Source: Lentisphaerota bacterium (lineage in GTDB: Bacteria; Verrucomicrobiota; Kiritimatiellia; UBA8416; VGWI01). Taken from it: 40,007 bases of DNA. Position 1 is the stretch's first letter. Each line of letters opens with the position of its first letter. The notes under the pieces were generated by a model, which was not told the origin of the DNA, did no database searches, and was given only the letters and a program-made list of their open reading frames with translations. The translations under genes and the position numbers were made by a program. Where the stretch lies: the NCBI GenBank assembly GCA_016873655.1, contig VGWI01000014.1, forward strand, positions 1 through 40,007, given 5' to 3'. This document shows, in pieces, positions 28,265-39,965 of this stretch.

Positions 28265-29236
28265 TCAGTAAAACTTCGGCGCCGCGGCAGCGAGTGTCCG
28301 GCGATTTTTCTTCCTTGCCAACAGACTGTTCGTGATTACTGCCGCCAGAAGCGGCAGTCCGGCGGCGGCGGATGTCCAGCGCAGGGTCCTCAACGGCGGA
28401 ACGCGGCCTGAGGCTGCCGCGAGATTGAAGAAGATGACCGCGCAGCTCAGCCAGACGGCGGAGAAGTTGCCGAGCGGCGAATCCGAGCGGACACACTGAA
28501 GCCCCTGAACCCGCGTCCGTGAAAATGGCCAGAACAGGTTGCTGCCGAGAAAACCTGCCTGGTCGAGCAGTATGTGCAGCGCGAACGCGCCGCCGGCCGC
28601 CGCCGCACCGATCGCTCCGGCGAACGTGCCGGCAAGCGCCGTGACCCCGGCCGCCGCGGCCACGCTGTGGGAGAAACGGCGATGCCACGGAAGAAAAACC
28701 GGCACCACTGCGCCGTCGGCCGCCGGCTCCATCGCGAACATCGCATCGCCGAACCCCGAAACAGCGGTGCTCGCGCGGTATTCGAGCCGGAGCCGCGCCT
28801 TGCACGGGGCCCAGCCCTCGAAACGCGGCGCGGGGCCTGCCGTGGCGCCGCCGGGATCAACGATATCGCCCAGCCGGACGCCGATCCGGCGTCCGGCCGG
28901 GTCGAAGATGACGTCATAGCGCCGCCACAGGTCGTGTGAGACGCGTACCGGGTGGAGGCGGACGGTCACTGCCCTGCCCTGTTCGGCGGCCCGGTCCGCG
29001 GCGTCTGCAAGCGCAGCGGAGACGACGGCGGGATCGGGATTCAGCGGATCGGGCACGATTTCGACGTGGTGGGTATGGAGGAACCGGGCGAACCGGAAGT
29101 CCAGCGTATCCGGCAGCAGCGCGCAGACCGCGGCCAGCGCGAAGAAACCAGGATGCCCACGCCCGGCGGCATCCACCGCGCCGGGCAGGCACGATGTCCA
29201 TGCCAGGCCGACCGCCAGATGGGACAGGCCTTTCAT
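28265..29236 (-). CDS. DUF457/YdjM-like membrane-bound metal-dependent hydrolase
   Basis: The 323-residue product fits the YdjM/DUF457 group of inner-membrane proteins predicted to be metal-dependent hydrolases. Putative metal-site motifs are spread along it: His6 in KGLSHLAVG, LLPDTLDF near residue 43, LPWHRRFSHSVAAA in the middle and ALHILLDQAG after it. Several hydrophobic helices surround them, including one near the C-terminus (about 260-277). A soluble segment of about 120 residues (roughly 60-180) is inserted after the first motifs and is not recognised. Its ATG overlaps the stop of the kinase gene (ATGA, 29233-29236), so the two are translated together. The true substrate of this family is not known. 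Confidence 0.7.
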   Translation of the reverse strand: MKGLSHLAVGLAWTSCLPGAVDAAGRGHPGFFALAAVCALLPDTLDFRFARFLHTHHVEIVPDPLNPDPAVVSAALADAADRAAEQGRAVTVRLHPVRVSHDLWRRYDVIFDPAGRRIGVRLGDIVDPGGATAGPAPRFEGWAPCKARLRLEYRASTAVSGFGDAMFAMEPAADGAVVPVFLPWHRRFSHSVAAAAGVTALAGTFAGAIGAAAAGGAFALHILLDQAGFLGSNLFWPFSRTRVQGLQCVRSDSPLGNFSAVWLSCAVIFFNLAAASGRVPPLRTLRWTSAAAGLPLLAAVITNSLLARKKNRRTLAAAAPKFY

Positions 29237-30336
29237 GAAGGCCGCGCCGGGAAAGCCTCGGGCCAGCACGCCCGCATGGCTTCGTGCAGTGCGGAATGAA
29301 GAGTGCGCGCGGAATCCAGGCGGTTGTGCTTGTCGAACGCGGTGGCCTTCTCAAGCACTGCGCGCACGGGAACCGGAACACCGCTGAAATCGAGGACCGG
29401 CCCCGTTGAGACCTCCTTGATAGTTACCGAACCGGAGCAGGGAAGCCTGCCGGCGATGAGTTCATAGGCGAGAACGCCCATCGCATAGACGTCCGTGCGC
29501 GGATCAAGCTCCTCACCGCGCGCCTGTTCCGGGCTCATGTAGGCCGGGGTGCCCATGATGAACTCGCTGCTCCACTGGCGGTTCAACAGGCAGCCTATGC
29601 CGAAATCAATCACTTTCACGACGCCGTTTGTGTCGAGCATCAGGTTGTCGGCCTTGAGATCGTTGTGAAGAATGCCGCGCCTGTGCGCGTGCGACACGGC
29701 GTCGGCGGCCACTTCAATTATGATGTCGGCATCGCGCACGGGGAACGGGCCGGATTTGTCTATCATGCGTCGCAGAGTCTCACCTTCGACGTATTCCATA
29801 ACCAGGAAATAGGTTGAGCCCGCCTTTTCGAGGTTATGCAGTCTTACTATGTGCCTGTGGGAGAGCGCCATGGTGAGACGGGCCTCGCGGCGGATGGTTG
29901 CGAGCGCGGCCGGATCTCTGGCCAGGGCCGGGAGCAGCACCTTGACCGCAACCGCCATGTCCAGCAGCATGTCGTGCGCTTTGTAGACGGTGCCGGTTCC
30001 CCCTTCTCCGAGGCGGGGACCGACGCGGTAGCGGGTGCCGAGAGAGTGTCTTGTCTGCCGTCCCCGCATGGACCGCGCCCGTTCTGCCGCCTCGTGGAGC
30101 TGTGCGCGGTCCACGGGTTTGTGTGGAGCCGACCGCGGCCTCGCAGCGGCCCCCCCCGGGCGTATTGGTTTCGGGGCGGCTGTGGGTTGTGCGGGTGGCG
30201 CCGGAGGCCGGACCGGCTGCGGGGAGATGATCCGGAGCGGTTTCTCCAGGGCAGGGTCGTTTTCGACGAGTCTGATCATGCGGCGGGGCGGCTGCCCGCC
30301 CTGGCTCTGCGGCAACCGGTGCAGTTCTTCATCCAT
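29233..30336 (-). CDS. Serine/threonine protein kinase, soluble, HND-type loop
   Basis: The 367-residue product has a Pro-rich N-terminal region (residues about 40-75) and a Hanks-type kinase domain from about 103 to 355. Visible motifs are LGEGGTGTVYKA (glycine loop, 109-120), VAVKV with Lys132, Glu151, HND (224-226) followed by LKADN, DFG (244-246) and SPEQARGE. Asp226 is kept but the Arg of HRD is Asn, so it is a non-RD kinase; activation-loop phosphorylation may not be needed. No membrane segment or extracellular sensor domain is present. The start at 30336 is preferred over 30360 because GGAGAAG precedes it. It overlaps the YdjM-like gene and is divergent from the TPR/ExbBD cluster, with 211 nt between the starts. 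Confidence 0.86.
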   Translation of the reverse strand: MDEELHRLPQSQGGQPPRRMIRLVENDPALEKPLRIISPQPVRPPAPPAQPTAAPKPIRPGGAAARPRSAPHKPVDRAQLHEAAERARSMRGRQTRHSLGTRYRVGPRLGEGGTGTVYKAHDMLLDMAVAVKVLLPALARDPAALATIRREARLTMALSHRHIVRLHNLEKAGSTYFLVMEYVEGETLRRMIDKSGPFPVRDADIIIEVAADAVSHAHRRGILHNDLKADNLMLDTNGVVKVIDFGIGCLLNRQWSSEFIMGTPAYMSPEQARGEELDPRTDVYAMGVLAYELIAGRLPCSGSVTIKEVSTGPVLDFSGVPVPVRAVLEKATAFDKHNRLDSARTLHSALHEAMRACWPEAFPARPS

Positions 30337-30547
30337 TGCTTCGCTTCTCCGTTCGGACATGGGAGAAAGTGTTTTATCCGTCGCTGTTTGTCAACGCCGC
30401 TGCTACGCGGCGCATGGAACTCGGCTGCGCCGTGCCGCTCCGTGCTCGAGGCGTGAAAAAAGGGGCTTGTTTCCACGTTCGTCATCAACCATCATCGGTC
30501 GCCTGCATCAGCATCCCGCGGTTGTTAGGCCGCGTGGGCTATTGAAC

Positions 30548-33370
30548 ATGCGAATTCGCGTAGAAAGAGCTGCAAGTCTCCTTCTTTGCGTTGCGGTGTG
30601 CGCCGCCCTGGCGCCCGTCGTTGCGCGCGGGCAGGCCAGTCCCCGCGAATTGCGTCAGTCTGCGAACACCAAGCTTGCGCAAGGCGCGTTTGTCGACGCC
30701 GTCCCGGATCTTGAGCAGCTCATCGCGTATCTCGGCCAGAGCAAGGATGCGCGGATAGTGGCCTCAATGGAATCCGTCTTCTACAACCTGGCCATCTGTC
30801 ATTTCTTCAGCGGCCAGTTCGATCCGGCGGAGACGGCGTTCCGCGACTACGTAAAGAGGTACCCGTACGGGTCGAGGACGAAGAAGGCGCACGTTTACAT
30901 AGCCGACGCGCTTCGCTTCAAGGGCAGCCTGAAGGAAGCGCTCAAGGCGTACGAGGATGTCCTGAGGAAATACGGCCTGGAGTTCAGCAAGGACCTCAAG
31001 GCGGACATCTATTGCTCGATGGCGCGGTGTTACCTCGCCGATGACGACTGGAAGGCGGCGATCGAGCCGCTGATGAATGCCTACGTCAACGCGCCCGACT
31101 TCATGCGGAGAAACTGGGCGGCGACGCTGCTGACCACCGCGTACTTCAAGGAGCTCGACCTCGAGAAGGTCTACCCGCTTGTGCAGTACTTCCTGCGTCC
31201 CGACTCGTTCGCCTCGCGTTCGATAGCCTTCAACCTGGCCGCGCTCGAGGCCGGCGACGAGCTGTTTGCCGACGAGCAATACCGGGACGCGCTCTGGGTT
31301 CACCGCATGGTTTACCCGTACGACATGGTGCTGCTCCGGAGCGAGCAGCACCTCGCCTACCTGCAGAAGCTGGCCGACGACATGAAAGGCCGCATCGGCG
31401 ACCCGCGCGAGCTGATGCGCGTGCAGGAGAGCATCGGCGAGCTCGAGGAGGAGCTGAAGGCTCTGCGCGGCGTGCCGAATTACGACATGGAGCTCTACAC
31501 GCGCATCGCGCGCGGCTACATGGAAATGCTGCGTTACTGGGAGGCGCGCGAGATATTCCTCCACCTGCACGAAGTGGCGGATCCGAAGCTCGCCGAGGAA
31601 GCGCTCTACTTCGCGTTCATCTGCTCGACGCGCCTGCTGCCGTGGGACAGGGCGTACGCGATAGGCGAGGACTACATGCGGGTGTATCCGGCCGGCATGT
31701 ACTACGACCCGATCACTCTCGCGATGGGGCAGATGTACGCGAAGGAACAGAACTGGAAGAAGGTCATCGAGCACTTCAAGAAGGTTCTCGAGGTCAGTCC
31801 CAAGCACGAGTCTGCCGCTGAGGTATATTTCCTGGTCGGCTACGCGTCCTTCATGGAGGAGCAGTTCGCCCAGGCGATAGACTACTTCACGCGGCTCATC
31901 AAGCAGTTCCCCGGCCACGAATTCGTCGGCGCCGCGACGTACTGGACCGGCATGTCCCACCTTTTCGACGGCAAGTACGAGGAGGCTTCGCCCTACTTTG
32001 ACCGCGTCCTCCAGGACTTCGCGTCGGGTCCGTACACTGAGGACGCGTCGTTCCGCCGCGCTGTCTGCGACTACGGGCAGTCCAGGTACGAGGAGGCCGA
32101 CCGCCTGCTTGCCTCGTTCGTGGCGGCCTATCCGAAGAGCGTGCTTTACCCCGAAGCCATAATGATGCGCGCGGATGTCGCCGGGTCGGGCGGCCGGCTT
32201 GACGACGCGGTGCGCCTGTACAAGCAGGCGATGGCCGCGAAAGACTTCAACATAGAGTTCTACAATCACTGCGCCTTCCAGTGCGGGCGCATCCTCACGG
32301 ACAACGAGGACTGGCCCGGCGCCGTTTCGCACTACCGCCAGTACATCGAGAACGGGCGGGACGGATCCAACCTGCCGCTTGCCGTGTACTGGATCGGCGT
32401 TGCCCTGTGGAACAGCGGCGAGGAAGAAGGCGCCATGCGCTACTACCGCGAGGCGGTGGAGAAGCACGGCAAGGACATCAACGCGATGGGCATAGACCTG
32501 ATTCTCGACGAATGGGTCGGGCGGACGAAAAGGGCGAAGCCGGAAGAGGCCGCAAAGGCCTGGCAGGAGCTGGTCAGCTCGCTCACGCGGGCGATGCAGA
32601 ACGGGGACAAGGTTATGGAGCTGCGCCTGAAGCGCGTGCTCGTGTACCACCCGAACATGCAGGCGGGTGAAAAGGAAAAGATCATCGCCGGCCTGCTGGA
32701 CGAGGCGAATCTGCCCCACTCCAGCCCGTCGGTCCTGCAGTCCATGCTCGACTACGCGCGAGAGAGGAAGAACCAGGAATTTGCCGTGCGGGTGGCGCAG
32801 GACATAATAGACCGCTACACGGAGACCGACTATGCGCTCGACTCGCGCATGGTGCTCGCGGACGTTGCGATCGCGCGGGCGCGCAACTCCTCGGACCCCG
32901 AGCAGAAGAAGACGTTCTACGCCGAGGCGATCAGGCATCTTGACGTGATACGGGCGGTGTTCGCCAGCAGCGGCGAGGCGGCCCAGGCGCTGATGCTGCT
33001 TGGAAGCATCTACCAGGACCAGCAGCAATACGAGAAGGCGGACGAGTGTTACAAGGCGGTGCTCGGCGTGAAAGGCTGGCGCAACCTGTGGGCGGAGGCC
33101 GGGTTCGGCAGGGGCGAGGCGGCATACGCGCAGCGGCAGTACGAGGCCGCCGGCGCCCACTACCAGCATGTGTACGTCATGTACGGCCACTACCGGCTCT
33201 GGGCCGCGCGCGCGTACTTGAAACACGCCGAGACGCTGAGAAGGCTTTACCAGACCGGGAAGGCCGTAGCCGTGCTTGAAGAAATGCTCGCCGACCCGGA
33301 ACTCGCCGCGCTGCCGGAAGGCGCCATAGCGCGGGACCTGCTGGGCAGGCTGAAGGGACAGGGCGGATGA
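30548..33370 (+). CDS. Large exported tetratricopeptide-repeat protein
   Basis: The 940-residue product begins with a signal peptide (MRIRVERAASLLLCVAVC, then AALAPVVARGQA). The rest is almost wholly alpha-helical, with repeated TPR-like units, for example FYNLAICHFFSGQFDPAETAF, YFLVGYASFMEEQFAQAIDYF, YWTGMSHLFDGKYEEASPYF and LMLLGSIYQDQQQYEKADECY. Spacing near 35-40 residues suggests many repeats over the full length, forming a long superhelical scaffold in the periplasm. The ribosome site is poor; the start is set by the signal peptide. It is the first gene of the cluster with ExbB, two ExbD and the vWA protein, and its stop overlaps the next start (ATGA, 33367-33370). It could bind the vWA protein or peptidoglycan-linked partners; that is inference. 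Confidence 0.82.
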   Translation: MRIRVERAASLLLCVAVCAALAPVVARGQASPRELRQSANTKLAQGAFVDAVPDLEQLIAYLGQSKDARIVASMESVFYNLAICHFFSGQFDPAETAFRDYVKRYPYGSRTKKAHVYIADALRFKGSLKEALKAYEDVLRKYGLEFSKDLKADIYCSMARCYLADDDWKAAIEPLMNAYVNAPDFMRRNWAATLLTTAYFKELDLEKVYPLVQYFLRPDSFASRSIAFNLAALEAGDELFADEQYRDALWVHRMVYPYDMVLLRSEQHLAYLQKLADDMKGRIGDPRELMRVQESIGELEEELKALRGVPNYDMELYTRIARGYMEMLRYWEAREIFLHLHEVADPKLAEEALYFAFICSTRLLPWDRAYAIGEDYMRVYPAGMYYDPITLAMGQMYAKEQNWKKVIEHFKKVLEVSPKHESAAEVYFLVGYASFMEEQFAQAIDYFTRLIKQFPGHEFVGAATYWTGMSHLFDGKYEEASPYFDRVLQDFASGPYTEDASFRRAVCDYGQSRYEEADRLLASFVAAYPKSVLYPEAIMMRADVAGSGGRLDDAVRLYKQAMAAKDFNIEFYNHCAFQCGRILTDNEDWPGAVSHYRQYIENGRDGSNLPLAVYWIGVALWNSGEEEGAMRYYREAVEKHGKDINAMGIDLILDEWVGRTKRAKPEEAAKAWQELVSSLTRAMQNGDKVMELRLKRVLVYHPNMQAGEKEKIIAGLLDEANLPHSSPSVLQSMLDYARERKNQEFAVRVAQDIIDRYTETDYALDSRMVLADVAIARARNSSDPEQKKTFYAEAIRHLDVIRAVFASSGEAAQALMLLGSIYQDQQQYEKADECYKAVLGVKGWRNLWAEAGFGRGEAAYAQRQYEAAGAHYQHVYVMYGHYRLWAARAYLKHAETLRRLYQTGKAVAVLEEMLADPELAALPEGAIARDLLGRLKGQGG

Positions 33371-34491
33371 AGAACCTCGCGTTGATTGTTGCGATGCTGC
33401 TGGCGGTCTGCGGAACCGTTTCGCGCGGCCAGTCCGCGCCGGCCGCCACGGCCACGCTTGCCGCCGGCGCGGTGACGCCGTGCCCGGCCTACATCAAGGT
33501 GGAAGGCAAGCAGGCGAAGGTGCTCCTGGTCGGGGCCGAAGCGGGGAAGGTTCTCTTCTGCCTCGGCGACTCACCGATGGGGCAGAGGCGCGAACTGCCT
33601 GTCGAAAAGGTCGAGACCGCGTACTTCGAGTACAAGATGGACTACGGGGCGCTGAACAAGGCTGTTTACGAACGGAAATGGGGCGAGGCCGCGCGCATCA
33701 TGCTGCCGTCTCTCGGCCCGACGCTTCCGTTCCTGAACCTGGCCGACAACAACGCCGTCGAGCAGGTGCTCGAGATGGGGAGCCACATGTACAGGGCCGC
33801 GATGGCGTCGCTCGACGCCGCGGCGACCGAGGAACAGAAGGAAAAGGCGCGAGAGCAGGTGAAGGCGGCCTTCGCCGTGTTCACGAAACTCGGCAAGGCG
33901 GAATGGTCGAGCACCGGGATGCTCGGCAAGCTGAAGAGCTTCAAGTGCCTGATTGCGCTGGAGAAGCCGAAGACCGCGCGGAAGTTGTTCGATGAATTGC
34001 CGCCGCCGGCCCCCGGCGACAGGGCCTACGGCCTTTACTGGCTGCTGAAGGGCGAAATGGACTTCGCGGACGGTCTGCACAGGGACGCGATGCAGGCTGC
34101 CGTGAATTCGCTGTGCTTCGAGAACAAGGATGTTGACACGTTCCCTGATGCGCTGCTGCTTTCGGCGCAGTGCTACGAGGAGTTCCAGGAATGGCACCGG
34201 GCGCGCGACGTGTACTACGAGACGGCGAAGATATTCCCGGACACCGACTGGGCGGAAGGCGCGGTGCGCAGGCTTCATTTCATCATGGACCGCGGGCTTA
34301 CAAAGGAAGAAGAGAAGTCTGCCGTGGAAACCGTGTTCTTCGGCCTGAAAGAAGACATGAACAAGAAGGTGAAAGACCTCTTTGAGGAACTGGCTTCCGG
34401 CCGGAAACGCGTGTTCGGAGAGCCGGAAGAGGACAAGACGCCGGTTGTTGACGAGGTGGACAAACTGAATCTGGACGAGCCGGACGAATAA
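33367..34491 (+). CDS. Exported helical protein, second gene of the ExbBD/vWA cluster
   Basis: The 374-residue product has a signal peptide (MKNLALIVAMLLAVCGTVSRGQS). A short beta-rich segment follows (about residues 40-90, YIKVEGKQAKVLLVGAEAGKVLF), then a helical TPR-like domain (about 95-310) with units such as SAQCYEEFQEWHRARDVYYETAKIFPDTDW. The C-terminus is charged and acidic (EPEEDKTPVVDEVDKLNLDEPDE). No family name was recognised. The start codon overlaps the stop of the large TPR gene, and the ExbB-like gene follows after 21 nt. It probably works in the periplasm with the larger TPR protein. Confidence 0.75.
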   Translation: MKNLALIVAMLLAVCGTVSRGQSAPAATATLAAGAVTPCPAYIKVEGKQAKVLLVGAEAGKVLFCLGDSPMGQRRELPVEKVETAYFEYKMDYGALNKAVYERKWGEAARIMLPSLGPTLPFLNLADNNAVEQVLEMGSHMYRAAMASLDAAATEEQKEKAREQVKAAFAVFTKLGKAEWSSTGMLGKLKSFKCLIALEKPKTARKLFDELPPPAPGDRAYGLYWLLKGEMDFADGLHRDAMQAAVNSLCFENKDVDTFPDALLLSAQCYEEFQEWHRARDVYYETAKIFPDTDWAEGAVRRLHFIMDRGLTKEEEKSAVETVFFGLKEDMNKKVKDLFEELASGRKRVFGEPEEDKTPVVDEVDKLNLDEPDE

Positions 34492-35382: not shown

Positions 35383-35808
35383 ATGCGGATGCCGGACATA
35401 CCTGAAGACGCCTCCACCTTCAACATGTCGCCCATGATCGACATGGTGTTCCAGCTGATGATCTTCTTCATGGTGGCGTCGCACTTCAGCACGACCCAGA
35501 ACGTTGACCTGAAGATACCCAGCGCGGTGCATGCGGTCGTGCCGAGGGACCGGCCCGACCGCGTCGTGGTGAACATAAGGGAGGACGGGGCCCTGTTCTG
35601 CGGGGAGCAGGCCGTCGCCAACGTGGATGACCTGAAGGCCGCGGTGAAGTCGTACAAGGACCTGTCGCCGGGGCTGAAGGTGTATCTCAGGGCCGATCGC
35701 GACGCGGAACACATGCATGTGCGCAAGGTTATGAATGCCATGGGCGAGCTGGGGATAGACGACTTCATCTTCGGCGCGTTCAAGCTTGGCGAGGGGCAGA
35801 GCGAATGA
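35383..35808 (+). CDS. ExbD/TolR-family protein, first copy
   Basis: The 141-residue product has a short cytoplasmic N-terminus, one membrane helix and a periplasmic domain, the standard ExbD/TolR plan. The helix begins MSPMIDMVFQLMIFFMV, with the conserved proton-carrying Asp at residue 20. The periplasmic part contains LYLRADRDA-like sequence (VYLRADRDAEHMHVRKVMNAMGE), the region that in TolR and ExbD dimerises and can bind peptidoglycan. It lies 24 nt after the ExbB-like gene and overlaps the second ExbD gene by 4 nt (35805-35808). Two different ExbD proteins may form a heterodimer inside the ExbB pentamer. Confidence 0.92.
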   Translation: MRMPDIPEDASTFNMSPMIDMVFQLMIFFMVASHFSTTQNVDLKIPSAVHAVVPRDRPDRVVVNIREDGALFCGEQAVANVDDLKAAVKSYKDLSPGLKVYLRADRDAEHMHVRKVMNAMGELGIDDFIFGAFKLGEGQSE

Positions 35809-36245
35809 AGACCAGCACACCGCCGGCCGACGATCCGGAACTCCAGATAGCTCCGCTGATCGACTGCGTTTTCCAGCTCCTGATCTTCTTCATGGTGTCG
35901 GCGAGCCTGGTGAAATCGGAAGGCGATCTCGGGATAAAGCTGCCGGGCATGAACCAGACGCCGACACAGGTGGACATGCCGGACGAGCAAATCATAGAGG
36001 TACGGTCGACGGGACAGGTATTCTTGAACGGCCGCGAGTTCGGGGACCCGCGCCGGTCGGAGCTGCCGGACCTGATCCAGACCCTGGTGCGGTACCGGCT
36101 GGCGTCGAATTCATCCAAGAACAAGCCCATGATAACCGTCTGGGCAGAGGACAGGACCCGTCATCAGCGCGTGATTGACGTTCTGGATGCGTGCAGCGCG
36201 GCGGGTATAGAATACGTGACTTTCTCCGGGTCGTCGCCGCAGTAG
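35805..36245 (+). CDS. ExbD/TolR-family protein, second copy
   Basis: The 146-residue product has the same plan as its neighbour: the helix begins IAPLIDCVFQLLIFFMVS, with Asp also at residue 20. The periplasmic part is clearly different in sequence from the first copy, with KSEGDLGIKLPG and a C-terminal VIDVLDACSAAGIEYVTFS, so this is an old duplication and not a recent repeat. Retention of Asp in both copies suggests both helices can take part in proton transfer. Its ATG overlaps the stop of the first copy, and the vWA gene follows after 28 nt. Confidence 0.92.
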   Translation: MKTSTPPADDPELQIAPLIDCVFQLLIFFMVSASLVKSEGDLGIKLPGMNQTPTQVDMPDEQIIEVRSTGQVFLNGREFGDPRRSELPDLIQTLVRYRLASNSSKNKPMITVWAEDRTRHQRVIDVLDACSAAGIEYVTFSGSSPQ

Positions 36246-36273: not shown

Positions 36274-37764
36274 ATGGCCGAGGAACTGGTGGACAACCTG
36301 ACCGAGCAGGAGCGGCTGGACCTGGCGAAGATTGCGCCGGAGGACCGCAGTTTCGCGCTGCTTACGGGCCTCGGCTTCCAGAAGCTCAGCAAGCAGCGTC
36401 GCCGTCAGCTCCAGTACGTCTTCCTCGTCAGCCTCGCAATACACGTTGTCGGGCTGGCCGCGTTCGGGGGCTGGGTGGTTCTGCGTCACCGCGGAGAGCG
36501 GGCGACGATCTTCACGACCCCGCCGCCTTCGCGAACCTACGAGCCGCGCAAGCTGGAGCACCAGGTGAAGATCCAGAAGCGGCAACGCAGCTCGAGCCGG
36601 CCCTCGATGGTGCCGCGACTGGTGTCGCTGAAGACGTCGCAGATCGCGCTGCCGGAAATCAAGATGGACCCGAAGATCGTTCACACCACGTTCCAACCGA
36701 AGTTCAAGGCCGTGTCCGGCAAGGGACTCGGCGTGGGGCTCGGGACCGGGTACGGAACGGACGGGTTCGGCGCGGGGGTGTCCAGCTTCAACTTCTTCGG
36801 CATTCCGGCGCGCGGGGAGCGTGTGGCCGTGCTTGTGGACGTATCGGTCAGCATGGTCGAAGAACAGCGCGGCGGGCCCCAGGGGTTCTGGCGCGTGAAG
36901 GAGCGCCTGAACCAGGTCGTGGATTCGCTGAACGAGGGAACGCTGTTCACCGTCATCGTTTTCGCCGAAGCGGCAAAGGTCATGGACAAGGAGATGCTGA
37001 TCGCCAGTGAGGACAACAAGAAGAAGGCGAAACTCTTCATTCGTCCGTTCAACACCGAAGGCAACTGGGGTTTGACGCAGGGCAACGTCTCGGGCGGGCC
37101 CGGACTACAGGCGGGCGGCGGCCGCGAAAGCTCGACGCGCCTGGACCTGGCACTGACCGGCGCCATGCTCCAGGGGGCGGACACAATCCTTGTGATCAGC
37201 GACGGAATCCCGCGCGTGAAGAAGGTCTGGAGCGCGGAGCAGGCGCAGGCGTTCCAGAACCAGCAGGCGAAATGGGCGTCCGAGAACGCTGCCCAAATGC
37301 AGGCGTGGAACCAGGCGAACGCCGCCTACCAGGGATCCATGCAGACGGTTACGGAGCGTGTGTGGGTTCCGCCAACGCCGGCGCAGCCGGCCATTCCGCC
37401 GCGCCCGCCGAGCAAGCAGCCTCCGAAGGAAGGCCAGGCTCCGGACAGGGGCGATCCGGGCCGGCCGGCGCAGCCGGCGAAGCCAGGCTACTGGAAGGAA
37501 GTCACGCGCCGGGTCGGGGGAGGCGGTAGTCCGCCGGGGCCGAGACCGCAGCCGCCGCCGGTGGCCGATCCAGGCTGGTGGACGCTGACCGATTTCGTCG
37601 AGCACATCACGCTTCTGTACAACGCGGTGTACGTCAAGCAGGGCCGCAAGCCACCGGTCATCCACTGCATCGGCTACCAGATCGACGACGAAGGGCACGC
37701 CTTCCTGCAGGATCTGTCTTCGAACTACCGCGGCCAGTACCGGCGTGTCCGTCAGTTGAAATAG
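36274..37764 (+). CDS. TonB-like membrane anchor fused to a von Willebrand A domain
   Basis: The 496-residue product has a cytoplasmic N-terminus (1-46) and a single membrane helix (about 48-70). The helix contains Ser53-Leu-Ala-Ile-His57. This SxxxH spacing is the same as the Ser16/His20 pair of TonB and the matching pair of TolA, needed for coupling to ExbB/TolQ. After a basic, Pro-containing linker and a Gly-rich stretch (148-170), a vWA domain starts near 182 with the MIDAS motif DVSVS (Asp189, Ser191, Ser193) and continues to LVISDGIPR (306-314). A long Gln/Ala- then Pro-rich insert (about 319-436) separates this from the last part of the fold (437-496). There is no TonB C-terminal domain. 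AAGGAGG precedes the start. Confidence 0.85.
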   Translation: MAEELVDNLTEQERLDLAKIAPEDRSFALLTGLGFQKLSKQRRRQLQYVFLVSLAIHVVGLAAFGGWVVLRHRGERATIFTTPPPSRTYEPRKLEHQVKIQKRQRSSSRPSMVPRLVSLKTSQIALPEIKMDPKIVHTTFQPKFKAVSGKGLGVGLGTGYGTDGFGAGVSSFNFFGIPARGERVAVLVDVSVSMVEEQRGGPQGFWRVKERLNQVVDSLNEGTLFTVIVFAEAAKVMDKEMLIASEDNKKKAKLFIRPFNTEGNWGLTQGNVSGGPGLQAGGGRESSTRLDLALTGAMLQGADTILVISDGIPRVKKVWSAEQAQAFQNQQAKWASENAAQMQAWNQANAAYQGSMQTVTERVWVPPTPAQPAIPPRPPSKQPPKEGQAPDRGDPGRPAQPAKPGYWKEVTRRVGGGGSPPGPRPQPPPVADPGWWTLTDFVEHITLLYNAVYVKQGRKPPVIHCIGYQIDDEGHAFLQDLSSNYRGQYRRVRQLK

Positions 37765-37784: not shown

Positions 37785-38306
37785 ATGCCCAGACTAGTCC
37801 TTGCAGCCATCCTTCTTGCATGTGGCGTCTCGACTGCGCCGGCCGGCCCGGCGGAATGGGTAAGCCGCGTACGCGTTCTGGCTGATCCGCCTAAGAACGG
37901 ACAGGTCACCTACGCCGTCAGGTTCACTCCGGAAAGGACCCTTTCATACGAGGCGATCACGTTCGAGTGCGTGTACAGGCAGGAGTTCCCGTGGGAGGAC
38001 TTCAAGGGCCGCAAGTTTACCAAGGTGCTGGAGCCGGTGATCTTCACCTTCAGGCGGGCCGCCGTGTCGTTCGTGGCGGAGCTGGACGCGGATGTCAATT
38101 TCCTGGTTCCGGTGGACTATGCGACACTGGCAGACAAGTACGGGCCCACGACGTTCAACAAGGATTACCCGATCACTATCAACAGGATCAGGATAACGGC
38201 CGTTGTTGCGGGCGCGGAGGCCTGGCAGGTTGAGTTGCCGGGCGCGGGCGGCGATTTCGACATGAAAGCGTTGCCGGCTGAGACAGAGGCGGAAACGGCG
38301 AAGTAA
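37785..38306 (+). CDS. Small exported protein of the ExbBD/vWA cluster
   Basis: The 173-residue product begins with a signal peptide (MPRLVLAAILLACGVSTAPAGPA). The mature part appears mainly beta-stranded, for example VTYAVRFTPERTLSYEAITFECVY and PITINRIRITAVVAGAEAWQVEL, and ends in an acidic, Ala-rich tail. No family was recognised. The start at 37785 has GGGGG about 6 nt upstream, and the earlier open frame overlaps the vWA gene. It lies 20 nt after that gene and 27 nt before the last gene, so it is part of the same unit. It may be a soluble or outer-membrane partner of the machine. Confidence 0.7.
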   Translation: MPRLVLAAILLACGVSTAPAGPAEWVSRVRVLADPPKNGQVTYAVRFTPERTLSYEAITFECVYRQEFPWEDFKGRKFTKVLEPVIFTFRRAAVSFVAELDADVNFLVPVDYATLADKYGPTTFNKDYPITINRIRITAVVAGAEAWQVELPGAGGDFDMKALPAETEAETAK

Positions 38307-38333: not shown

Positions 38334-39965
38334 ATGAAGGCGCTCTTCGGATACGTTTCGGTCCTCGTTGTGCTGGGCATAGGCGCCCGCGCAGCGGAGG
38401 TCAACCTGTTCACGCCGGAGATGCAACAGCTCCGGAACAACTACGTCGCCGAGAAGACCGCGGCCGCGGAGTCGCGGCTGGGATCGCTGCGAAGCATGAT
38501 TTCCGAGGGCCGCGTCCGTTACGACCAGATGCTGGACCGGCACAAGGTGACGGGCAACATCCCCGGCCTGGCCGTGGCGCGGACAGGCATCTCGACCTTC
38601 GAGGATTTCCTGGCGCAACTGGACAAGACGAAGGACTTCACTTTCCCGCCGAGGATAAGACGCGAGCTGGAAGAGCACTTCACAGAACTGAAACAGCGCA
38701 AGGCGGAGATAGACGCCGCGCATCTGGTCGCGGTCCGGGCGATGGAGGACAAGCATCTCCTGCTCCTTGCCGACCTGTGCAGGGCGCAGGGGGCTGACGT
38801 GTCGGACCCCGCCGGACTGAAGAAGCTGCTTGCGGACCTTGCCGGCGCTGAGGCGCCGGGCGGGGCGGCGGAGCCCGGCGGTGGCGAGAAGCCGGCAGGG
38901 CCGGGGATCGTGGGGGAATCCGGCTCATCATCCAACTGGGTGCCTTTCGCGCGGTGGCACGCCACGGTGAACGGGATCGAGATACTGGAGGTCTCGGTGG
39001 CCGGGGTGCGCGAGAAGGGCTCGTTCAAGGGGCGCAGCGTGATGGGCAAGGAGTTCGAGGTGCGGTATGAGCCCATTCGCGAGATCGCACCGGTCGGCGC
39101 GGCGCAGTTCATGGTGCGGGCCCTGCCCGGAAAGCAGGCGGGCGAGGTGATCCAGTGGCCGTCCGCGCGGAACCGGTGGACCATGGCGGTGCGCCTGCGT
39201 CCGGACAGGGGCATCATCCCTTCGGAGCATGGGTTCGAGCTGTTTGCCGGTTACCCCGGCGTCGAACGCGCGCCGCTGGTTGCAGGCGCTGACCCGGAGG
39301 CGTCGCCGCCAATGACCGTCTCTCTCGCCGACACTACGGTGAAGGTAAGGTTCCTCACGCAGCCTGACGGCGCGGCCGTGTATGTCAACGGAGCGCGGAT
39401 TGACACCAGGGGCGGGCCGGCGCTGACCCCGTGCGAAGTGGATGTGCCCGAAGGCAAGCACACCGTCACGCTGAAGAAGACGGGCTACGAGGACGTTGTG
39501 TTGACGGATTTTGCGCCCGCCGCGGGGCAGGAGGTGGCCAGGTTTCTACGGAAGGATCCGCGCTTTGTCGAGAAGGCCCTGCAGGTGTCGGCCAGGGGCA
39601 AATGGCGCAATTCGGGAATCGAACTCCAAGCGGGGGATATTGTTTCGATCGAGGTGGAAGGACTCTGGAGCTGCGGATCGAAAGGCGAGATGGTCGGGCC
39701 GGAGGGATATCCCAACAGCCAGCAGTTTTATCACTACTACATCAGACCTTCGCAGAGCCCGCGCCAGGATGACAAGGCCAGCTACGGCGCGCTCCTGATG
39801 CGCATAGGGATTGACGGGCCGATGGCGGCGATAACCGCGCGCAGCTTCCGGGCGGCCATCCGGACGGCGGGCACGCTGTACTTTGATATCAACGAGGCCG
39901 AGTCGGCGCGGACCGACAATGTGGGTGCGCTGACCCTGACGGTCCACAAGGGTCCGGCCGACTGA
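38334..39965 (+). CDS. Exported protein with PEGA and PA-IL-like domains
   Basis: The 543-residue product starts with a signal peptide (MKALFGYVSVLVVLGIGARAAE). A helical region (about 25-150) is followed by a Gly/Ala/Pro linker (171-200) and an unassigned beta-rich domain (about 202-315). Next is a PEGA-type domain (335-400: LTQPDGAAVYVNG ... TPCEVDVPEGKHTVTLKKTGYED), a small surface-protein fold. Last is a PA-IL/LecA-like beta-sandwich (417-538) with WRNSGIELQAGD, the SYGALLMRIG strand, and a C-terminal DNVGALTLTVH; galactose or calcium binding is possible but not shown. The domains suggest a carbohydrate- or wall-facing protein. It is the last gene before the window edge. Confidence 0.75.
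   Translation: MKALFGYVSVLVVLGIGARAAEVNLFTPEMQQLRNNYVAEKTAAAESRLGSLRSMISEGRVRYDQMLDRHKVTGNIPGLAVARTGISTFEDFLAQLDKTKDFTFPPRIRRELEEHFTELKQRKAEIDAAHLVAVRAMEDKHLLLLADLCRAQGADVSDPAGLKKLLADLAGAEAPGGAAEPGGGEKPAGPGIVGESGSSSNWVPFARWHATVNGIEILEVSVAGVREKGSFKGRSVMGKEFEVRYEPIREIAPVGAAQFMVRALPGKQAGEVIQWPSARNRWTMAVRLRPDRGIIPSEHGFELFAGYPGVERAPLVAGADPEASPPMTVSLADTTVKVRFLTQPDGAAVYVNGARIDTRGGPALTPCEVDVPEGKHTVTLKKTGYEDVVLTDFAPAAGQEVARFLRKDPRFVEKALQVSARGKWRNSGIELQAGDIVSIEVEGLWSCGSKGEMVGPEGYPNSQQFYHYYIRPSQSPRQDDKASYGALLMRIGIDGPMAAITARSFRAAIRTAGTLYFDINEAESARTDNVGALTLTVHKGPAD

Follow-up and report, generated by a model that had tools for sequence, protein, structure and literature searches.

A putative ExbB/ExbD-coupled transducer with a von Willebrand A domain in a Lentisphaerota bacterium, and the diverse output domains of its relatives

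Two machines, the Ton and Tol systems, are well known for delivering inner-membrane energy to the outer envelope. Motor-driven force transducers bearing a von Willebrand A (vWA) domain, the Tichowtungia family, were described by Williams-Jones et al. (Mol Biol Evol, June 2025; PMC12204202), who gave no phenotype for these proteins and whose AF3 models place the His of the transducer on the motor. The idea of a motor-driven vWA transducer, which the initial annotation of the present locus had also put forward, is therefore already in print; beyond that work, we add comparative evidence, drawn from sequence alignments, for docking on the motor and a variety of output domains that had not been reported.

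We analyzed a stretch of 40,007 bases (hereafter, the window), which makes up an entire contig of a draft genome of 3.08 Mb; the named relatives are MAGs from Lentisphaeria. From the features that it shares with them, we place the window protein among the vWA transducers of Williams-Jones et al. Like those transducers, it has a single N-terminal transmembrane (TM) helix with Ser-x3-His and a globular C-terminal vWA domain, and its gene is preceded by TPR genes, a tolQ-like gene, and two distinct tolR-like genes. It differs from them in three respects: only the S and H of the SHLS motif (S-x3-H-x6-L-x3-S) are kept, with Phe64 at the Leu position and Val68 at the second Ser position; Asn occupies the contact site of its ExbB; and the vWA domain carries a large proline-rich insertion. 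The transpore-helix vWA proteins associated with TolQ (PMC12204202) likewise place a membrane-tethered vWA domain beside a TolQ-type protein; however, they lack exbD/tolR genes and SxxxH and carry an aspartate in their own helix, whereas the window has two ExbDs, an SxxxH motif, and a transducer helix without Asp. With TonB and TolA the window protein shares the N-terminal SxxxH helix, the periplasmic linker, and ExbB/ExbD- or TolQ/TolR-type genes alongside. Unlike them, it ends in a vWA domain with no Pfam TonB_C match, in agreement with the initial annotation, and it lacks the L and second S of SHLS. It probably works like TonB or TolA, yet it is neither.

Architecture of the Transducer and Its Operon

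Orthologues of the transducer gene, with 50–67% identity, were observed across Lentisphaeria. The protein has one hydrophobic helix only, at its N-terminus, and this helix contains S53-L-A-I-H57 (table 1). The linker that follows is about 100 residues long, and its length and conservation fit the linker of the vWA transducers, whereas the hydrophobic pattern of the D-box was matched in part only. By analogy with TonB (PMC10907165), a strand of this linker may bind ExbD.

The vWA assignment of the C-terminal domain was supported by an orthologue profile and by a predicted fold. On its own, the window transducer matched the Pfam vWA family PF13519 with an E value of 3.5e-4, which is below Pfam's cut-off; PF13519 was found at E 0.01 or better in 11 of 18 orthologues, and a profile built from 18 orthologues reached inter-alpha-inhibitor H4 in its vWA region (E 9e-4). 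An AlphaFold2 model of the whole transducer built from six sequences was poor (pLDDT 48.7) and its fold search was meaningless; thus, only the model of residues 160–496 (pLDDT 62.6) was used, for which the top Foldseek matches were the vWA domains 6fpy, 4fx5, and 6pyo, all with probability 1.00. The five MIDAS residues are all present in the window protein. All but one of the close homologues also keep them (29 of 30, the exception being a fragment at a contig end), against only 62 of 96 vWA-type relatives overall, so that about one-third are without an intact MIDAS. Thus, we suggest from this distribution that the MIDAS is probably functional in the clade of the window and is no requirement of the family.

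The gene order TPR-TPR-ExbB-ExbD-ExbD-transducer recurred across Lentisphaeria, often followed by the genes for the 173-aa and PEGA-domain proteins, and the same order up to the transducer was observed in other Verrucomicrobiota, with weaker TPR matches. What had initially been observed in the sequence was confirmed: the Ser53-xxx-His57 motif in a single N-terminal helix, the position of the gene directly after ExbB, ExbD, and ExbD, and the C-terminal vWA domain with an intact MIDAS; in addition, the search that had been suggested for other SxxxH-vWA proteins next to exbBD returned them repeatedly in this order. When searched with a profile of the helix and linker, 100 of 388 genomes sampled from the phylum contained a match (E 1e-3), as did 65 of 346 from the class (E 1e-20).

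The window genome contains eight ExbB-type matches. Its single TonB_C protein, as detected with Pfam, is encoded on contig 32 (G000:C32; L032, L038, L104) and adjoins two adjacent ExbB-type genes and an ExbD. The SxxxH-vWA protein was considered as the TonB replacement of this genome; because contig 32 carries a separate TonB_C protein, the vWA transducer does not stand in for TonB. A reading as an anti-phage defence system was also dropped, since the PADLOC models gave no match to the ExbB, ExbD, or vWA protein at E 0.01. A Ser/Thr protein kinase-like ORF (29233-30360, minus strand) is divergent from the motor operon. The last bases of the contig (39978-40007) form a C run interspersed with a few other bases, which looks like an assembly or sequencing artefact.

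Table 1. Features of the window and of related loci
Feature	Position	Strand	Match or basis
Large TPR protein of about 940 aa that opens the conserved operon; YbgF/CpoB-like repeats and an apparent signal peptide	30548..33370	+	TIGR02795, E 1.5e-45
Second TPR-like protein, 374 aa, kept in the operon	33367..34491	+	
ExbB/TolQ-type motor subunit, 281 aa	34513..35358	+	PF01618, E 1.9e-27
ExbD/TolR-type protein 1, 141 aa, TM aspartate D20	35383..35808	+	PF02472, E 1.4e-26
ExbD/TolR-type protein 2, 146 aa, TM aspartate D20	35805..36245	+	PF02472, E 9.2e-21
SxxxH-vWA transducer, 496 aa, ATG start	36274..37764	+	ORF, orthologue alignment; vWA by sub-threshold Pfam match, profile, and fold
Ser53-LAI-His57 putative motor-binding motif in the single TM helix	36430..36444	+	Two most conserved helix columns
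Conserved periplasmic linker, residues 74–170, with F80, 'EPRKLEHQVKIQK', and P110; candidate ExbD-binding strand (motor box / D-box)	36493..36783	+	
MIDAS residues D189, S191, S193, T288, and D310 of the vWA domain, all five present	36838..37203	+	
Proline-rich insertion in the vWA domain, about residues 316–430, differing between orthologues; beta hairpin in the model	37219..37563	+	
Exported protein, 173 aa, no family assigned; downstream in many orthologous operons	37785..38306	+	
Exported PEGA-domain protein, 543 aa, last gene; in part of the orthologous operons	38334..39965	+	PF08308, E 1.6e-8
SxxxH helix-linker fused to a squalene-hopene-cyclase/prenyltransferase-like toroid	L115:5423-7309; L172:99-1589; L135:6055-9333; L137:4837-6489; L070:619-2133; L159:263-1732		

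Conservation of the SxxxH Helix and the ExbB Contact Residue

Among 114 relatives, which are selected loci and not a random sample, His57 was conserved in 109 (96%) and Ser53 in 98 (86%), compared with 67% for the third-ranked column of the helix. Since the Ser and His columns exceeded all other helix columns, the motif is not a chance occurrence. In the E. coli cryo-EM structure, Ser16 and His20 of TonB contact Ser34 and Trp38 of ExbB (PMC12215075). We addressed the co-variation of the two partners in 72 operons with both a transducer and an ExbB gene. The residue equivalent to ExbB Ser34 was Ser in 68 of the 69 operons whose transducer has the His and in none of the three without it (Fisher p 6.7e-5); among 249 ExbB columns, this one gave the strongest association, with p 0.011 for the runner-up. 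In the His-less operons, His was replaced by Tyr with Asn in ExbB (L044), by Leu with Ala (L041), and by Thr with Phe (L053); one further His-less relative was on a contig too short to show its ExbB. As the Fisher test takes no account of kinship, we supplemented it with trees and a branch-length estimate: the three losses sit in separate lineages in both the transducer and the ExbB trees, and the branch-length-weighted chance of the coincidence was about 3e-4, a rough figure estimated after the pattern had been seen. The six operons that have lost the Ser of the motif but retain the His also retain the ExbB Ser; therefore, the ExbB residue tracks the His. The TM aspartates of the ExbDs were intact, including in the His-less operons, and the Trp38 equivalent was not conserved in the ExbBs of the vWA-transducer family (Ile/Val/Leu).

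Syntenic homologues that do not keep Ser and His had been named at the outset as a finding that would refute coupling. Such homologues do occur, in 3 of the 72 operons; however, the ExbB contact residue has changed in these as well, which argues for docking at that site in the rest of the family. The co-variation thus provides evidence that the SxxxH helix docks at the TonB site of ExbB across the family, and very probably the transducer plugs into the ion-driven ExbB/ExbD motor in the manner of TonB. The window itself is the exception. Its ExbB has Asn72 (codon 34726-34728) at the position of E. coli Ser34, the sole non-Ser residue among the 69 His-bearing operons, and the sister lineage L044 shares this Asn and additionally has Tyr for His. 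Asn72 could still bond His57; because of the Asn in its own ExbB and the further change in L044, the interface of the window may be altered or in transition.

A vWA relative at L112:5863-7269 has V..Q in place of S..H; no recognised ExbB or ExbD lies nearby, and a TPR relative is encoded upstream.

Output Domains Joined to the Helix and Linker

Clustering of the C-terminal parts of the relatives gave three groups: vWA (95 members), PA14-like (11), and toroid (7). PF07691 (PA14) was above the cut-off only in the second gene of L059, the other PA14-like members being grouped by alignment. The toroid group matched the C-terminal domain of squalene-hopene cyclase, PF13243, which was above the cut-off in L070, L135, and L115. 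In L115 and L172, the toroid protein occupies the slot of the vWA protein in complete TPR-ExbB-ExbD-ExbD operons. At L059 (6229-9241), two consecutive SxxxH proteins, the one with a vWA and the next with a PA14 domain, follow a single ExbB-ExbD-ExbD set, and in at least the second of them a SAM domain precedes the helix. We considered whether the toroid and PA14-like versions could be frame or assembly artefacts, which is unlikely, because they recur in several genomes and two of them lie in complete motor operons. Literature searches for toroid or PA14 versions of the SxxxH module found no publication.

In L126-L132 (genomes G084 and G403; family f37, genus g47), a dozen or more helix-linker proteins were observed per genome. 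Many of these are PA14-like and lie away from exbB, and nearly all have SxxxH, as if many transducers shared few motors.

We propose, with the balance tipping modestly in favor, that the SxxxH helix and linker may form a general plug that joins ExbBD motors to interchangeable outputs (vWA, toroid, or PA14-like), spread through Verrucomicrobiota, sometimes with two outputs in one operon and sometimes with a dozen copies per genome on few motors.

Proposed Mechanism and Its Alternatives

The architecture, the strict gene order, the conservation of Ser and His, and the correlated change in ExbB are directly supported. To account for them we propose an ExbBD-driven periplasmic force transducer, an explanation that we hold to be likely. 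The SxxxH helix would dock where TonB and TolA do, on the outer side of TM helix 1 in the ExbB pentamer, while the two different ExbDs would supply the proton-carrying aspartates. One ExbD would probably grip the conserved linker strand, by strand pairing of the kind seen with the D-box of TonB (PMC10907165). A pull or twist from the motor, powered by ion flow, would then move the linker and pass through it to load the vWA domain, which may hold a protein partner through a metal at its MIDAS. Such a partner would most likely be an envelope protein encoded in this operon; the TPR proteins, including the one with YbgF/CpoB-like repeats, come first as candidates.

The same components could be arranged as a sensor or clamp, in which binding of an envelope partner to the vWA domain would report load or occupancy to the motor through the SxxxH helix and gate proton flow, while the vWA domain itself would transmit no useful force. 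All features observed in this analysis fit such an arrangement as well, and in E. coli a path runs from the Ser/His contact via ExbB Trp38 to Pro190, a proposed route of motor signalling (PMC12215075). Nevertheless, sensing alone leaves the large conserved linker, with its candidate ExbD-binding strand, unexplained, and we consider it unlikely as the whole account; sensor and transducer are not mutually exclusive. Slightly less probable still is a static scaffold that merely assembles the TPR proteins and the motor, the work of which would go through ExbD or another partner. The loss of the His in the otherwise intact operons L041, L044, and L053 suggests that coupling through this residue is dispensable in some lineages, but across the 114 relatives the His and Ser are under selection, and the His is linked to the ExbB contact residue.

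The initial annotation had gone further and supposed that ion-driven force could be applied to a metal-dependent adhesion domain in place of an outer-membrane receptor. Coupling to ExbB through the SxxxH helix stood up, given the Ser and His columns, the strict synteny, and the joint change of His and ExbB; the adhesion part was not supported, as nothing in the analysis points to adhesion and the MIDAS is degenerate in about one-third of the vWA relatives. A motor-moved adhesin would resemble CglB in the gliding of Myxococcus, and a gliding role was raised by Williams-Jones et al. (PMC12204202); the complete MIDAS of the close homologues is consistent with it. However, a vWA domain about 100 residues from an inner-membrane helix should be periplasmic, and in relatives toroid and PA14-like domains substitute for it. 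We regard surface adhesion or gliding as the least probable of the alternatives.

On the preferred explanation of a periplasmic force transducer, a widespread third kind of envelope machine with a different working end would be worth characterizing. Operons in which the His has been lost naturally and one ExbB residue has changed along with it offer a ready set of mutants for tests of docking. The domain swaps suggest that the motor may be harnessable to quite different periplasmic tasks and, if the SxxxH helix and linker are indeed a general plug, the 2025 vWA transducers would represent a single branch within a broader class.
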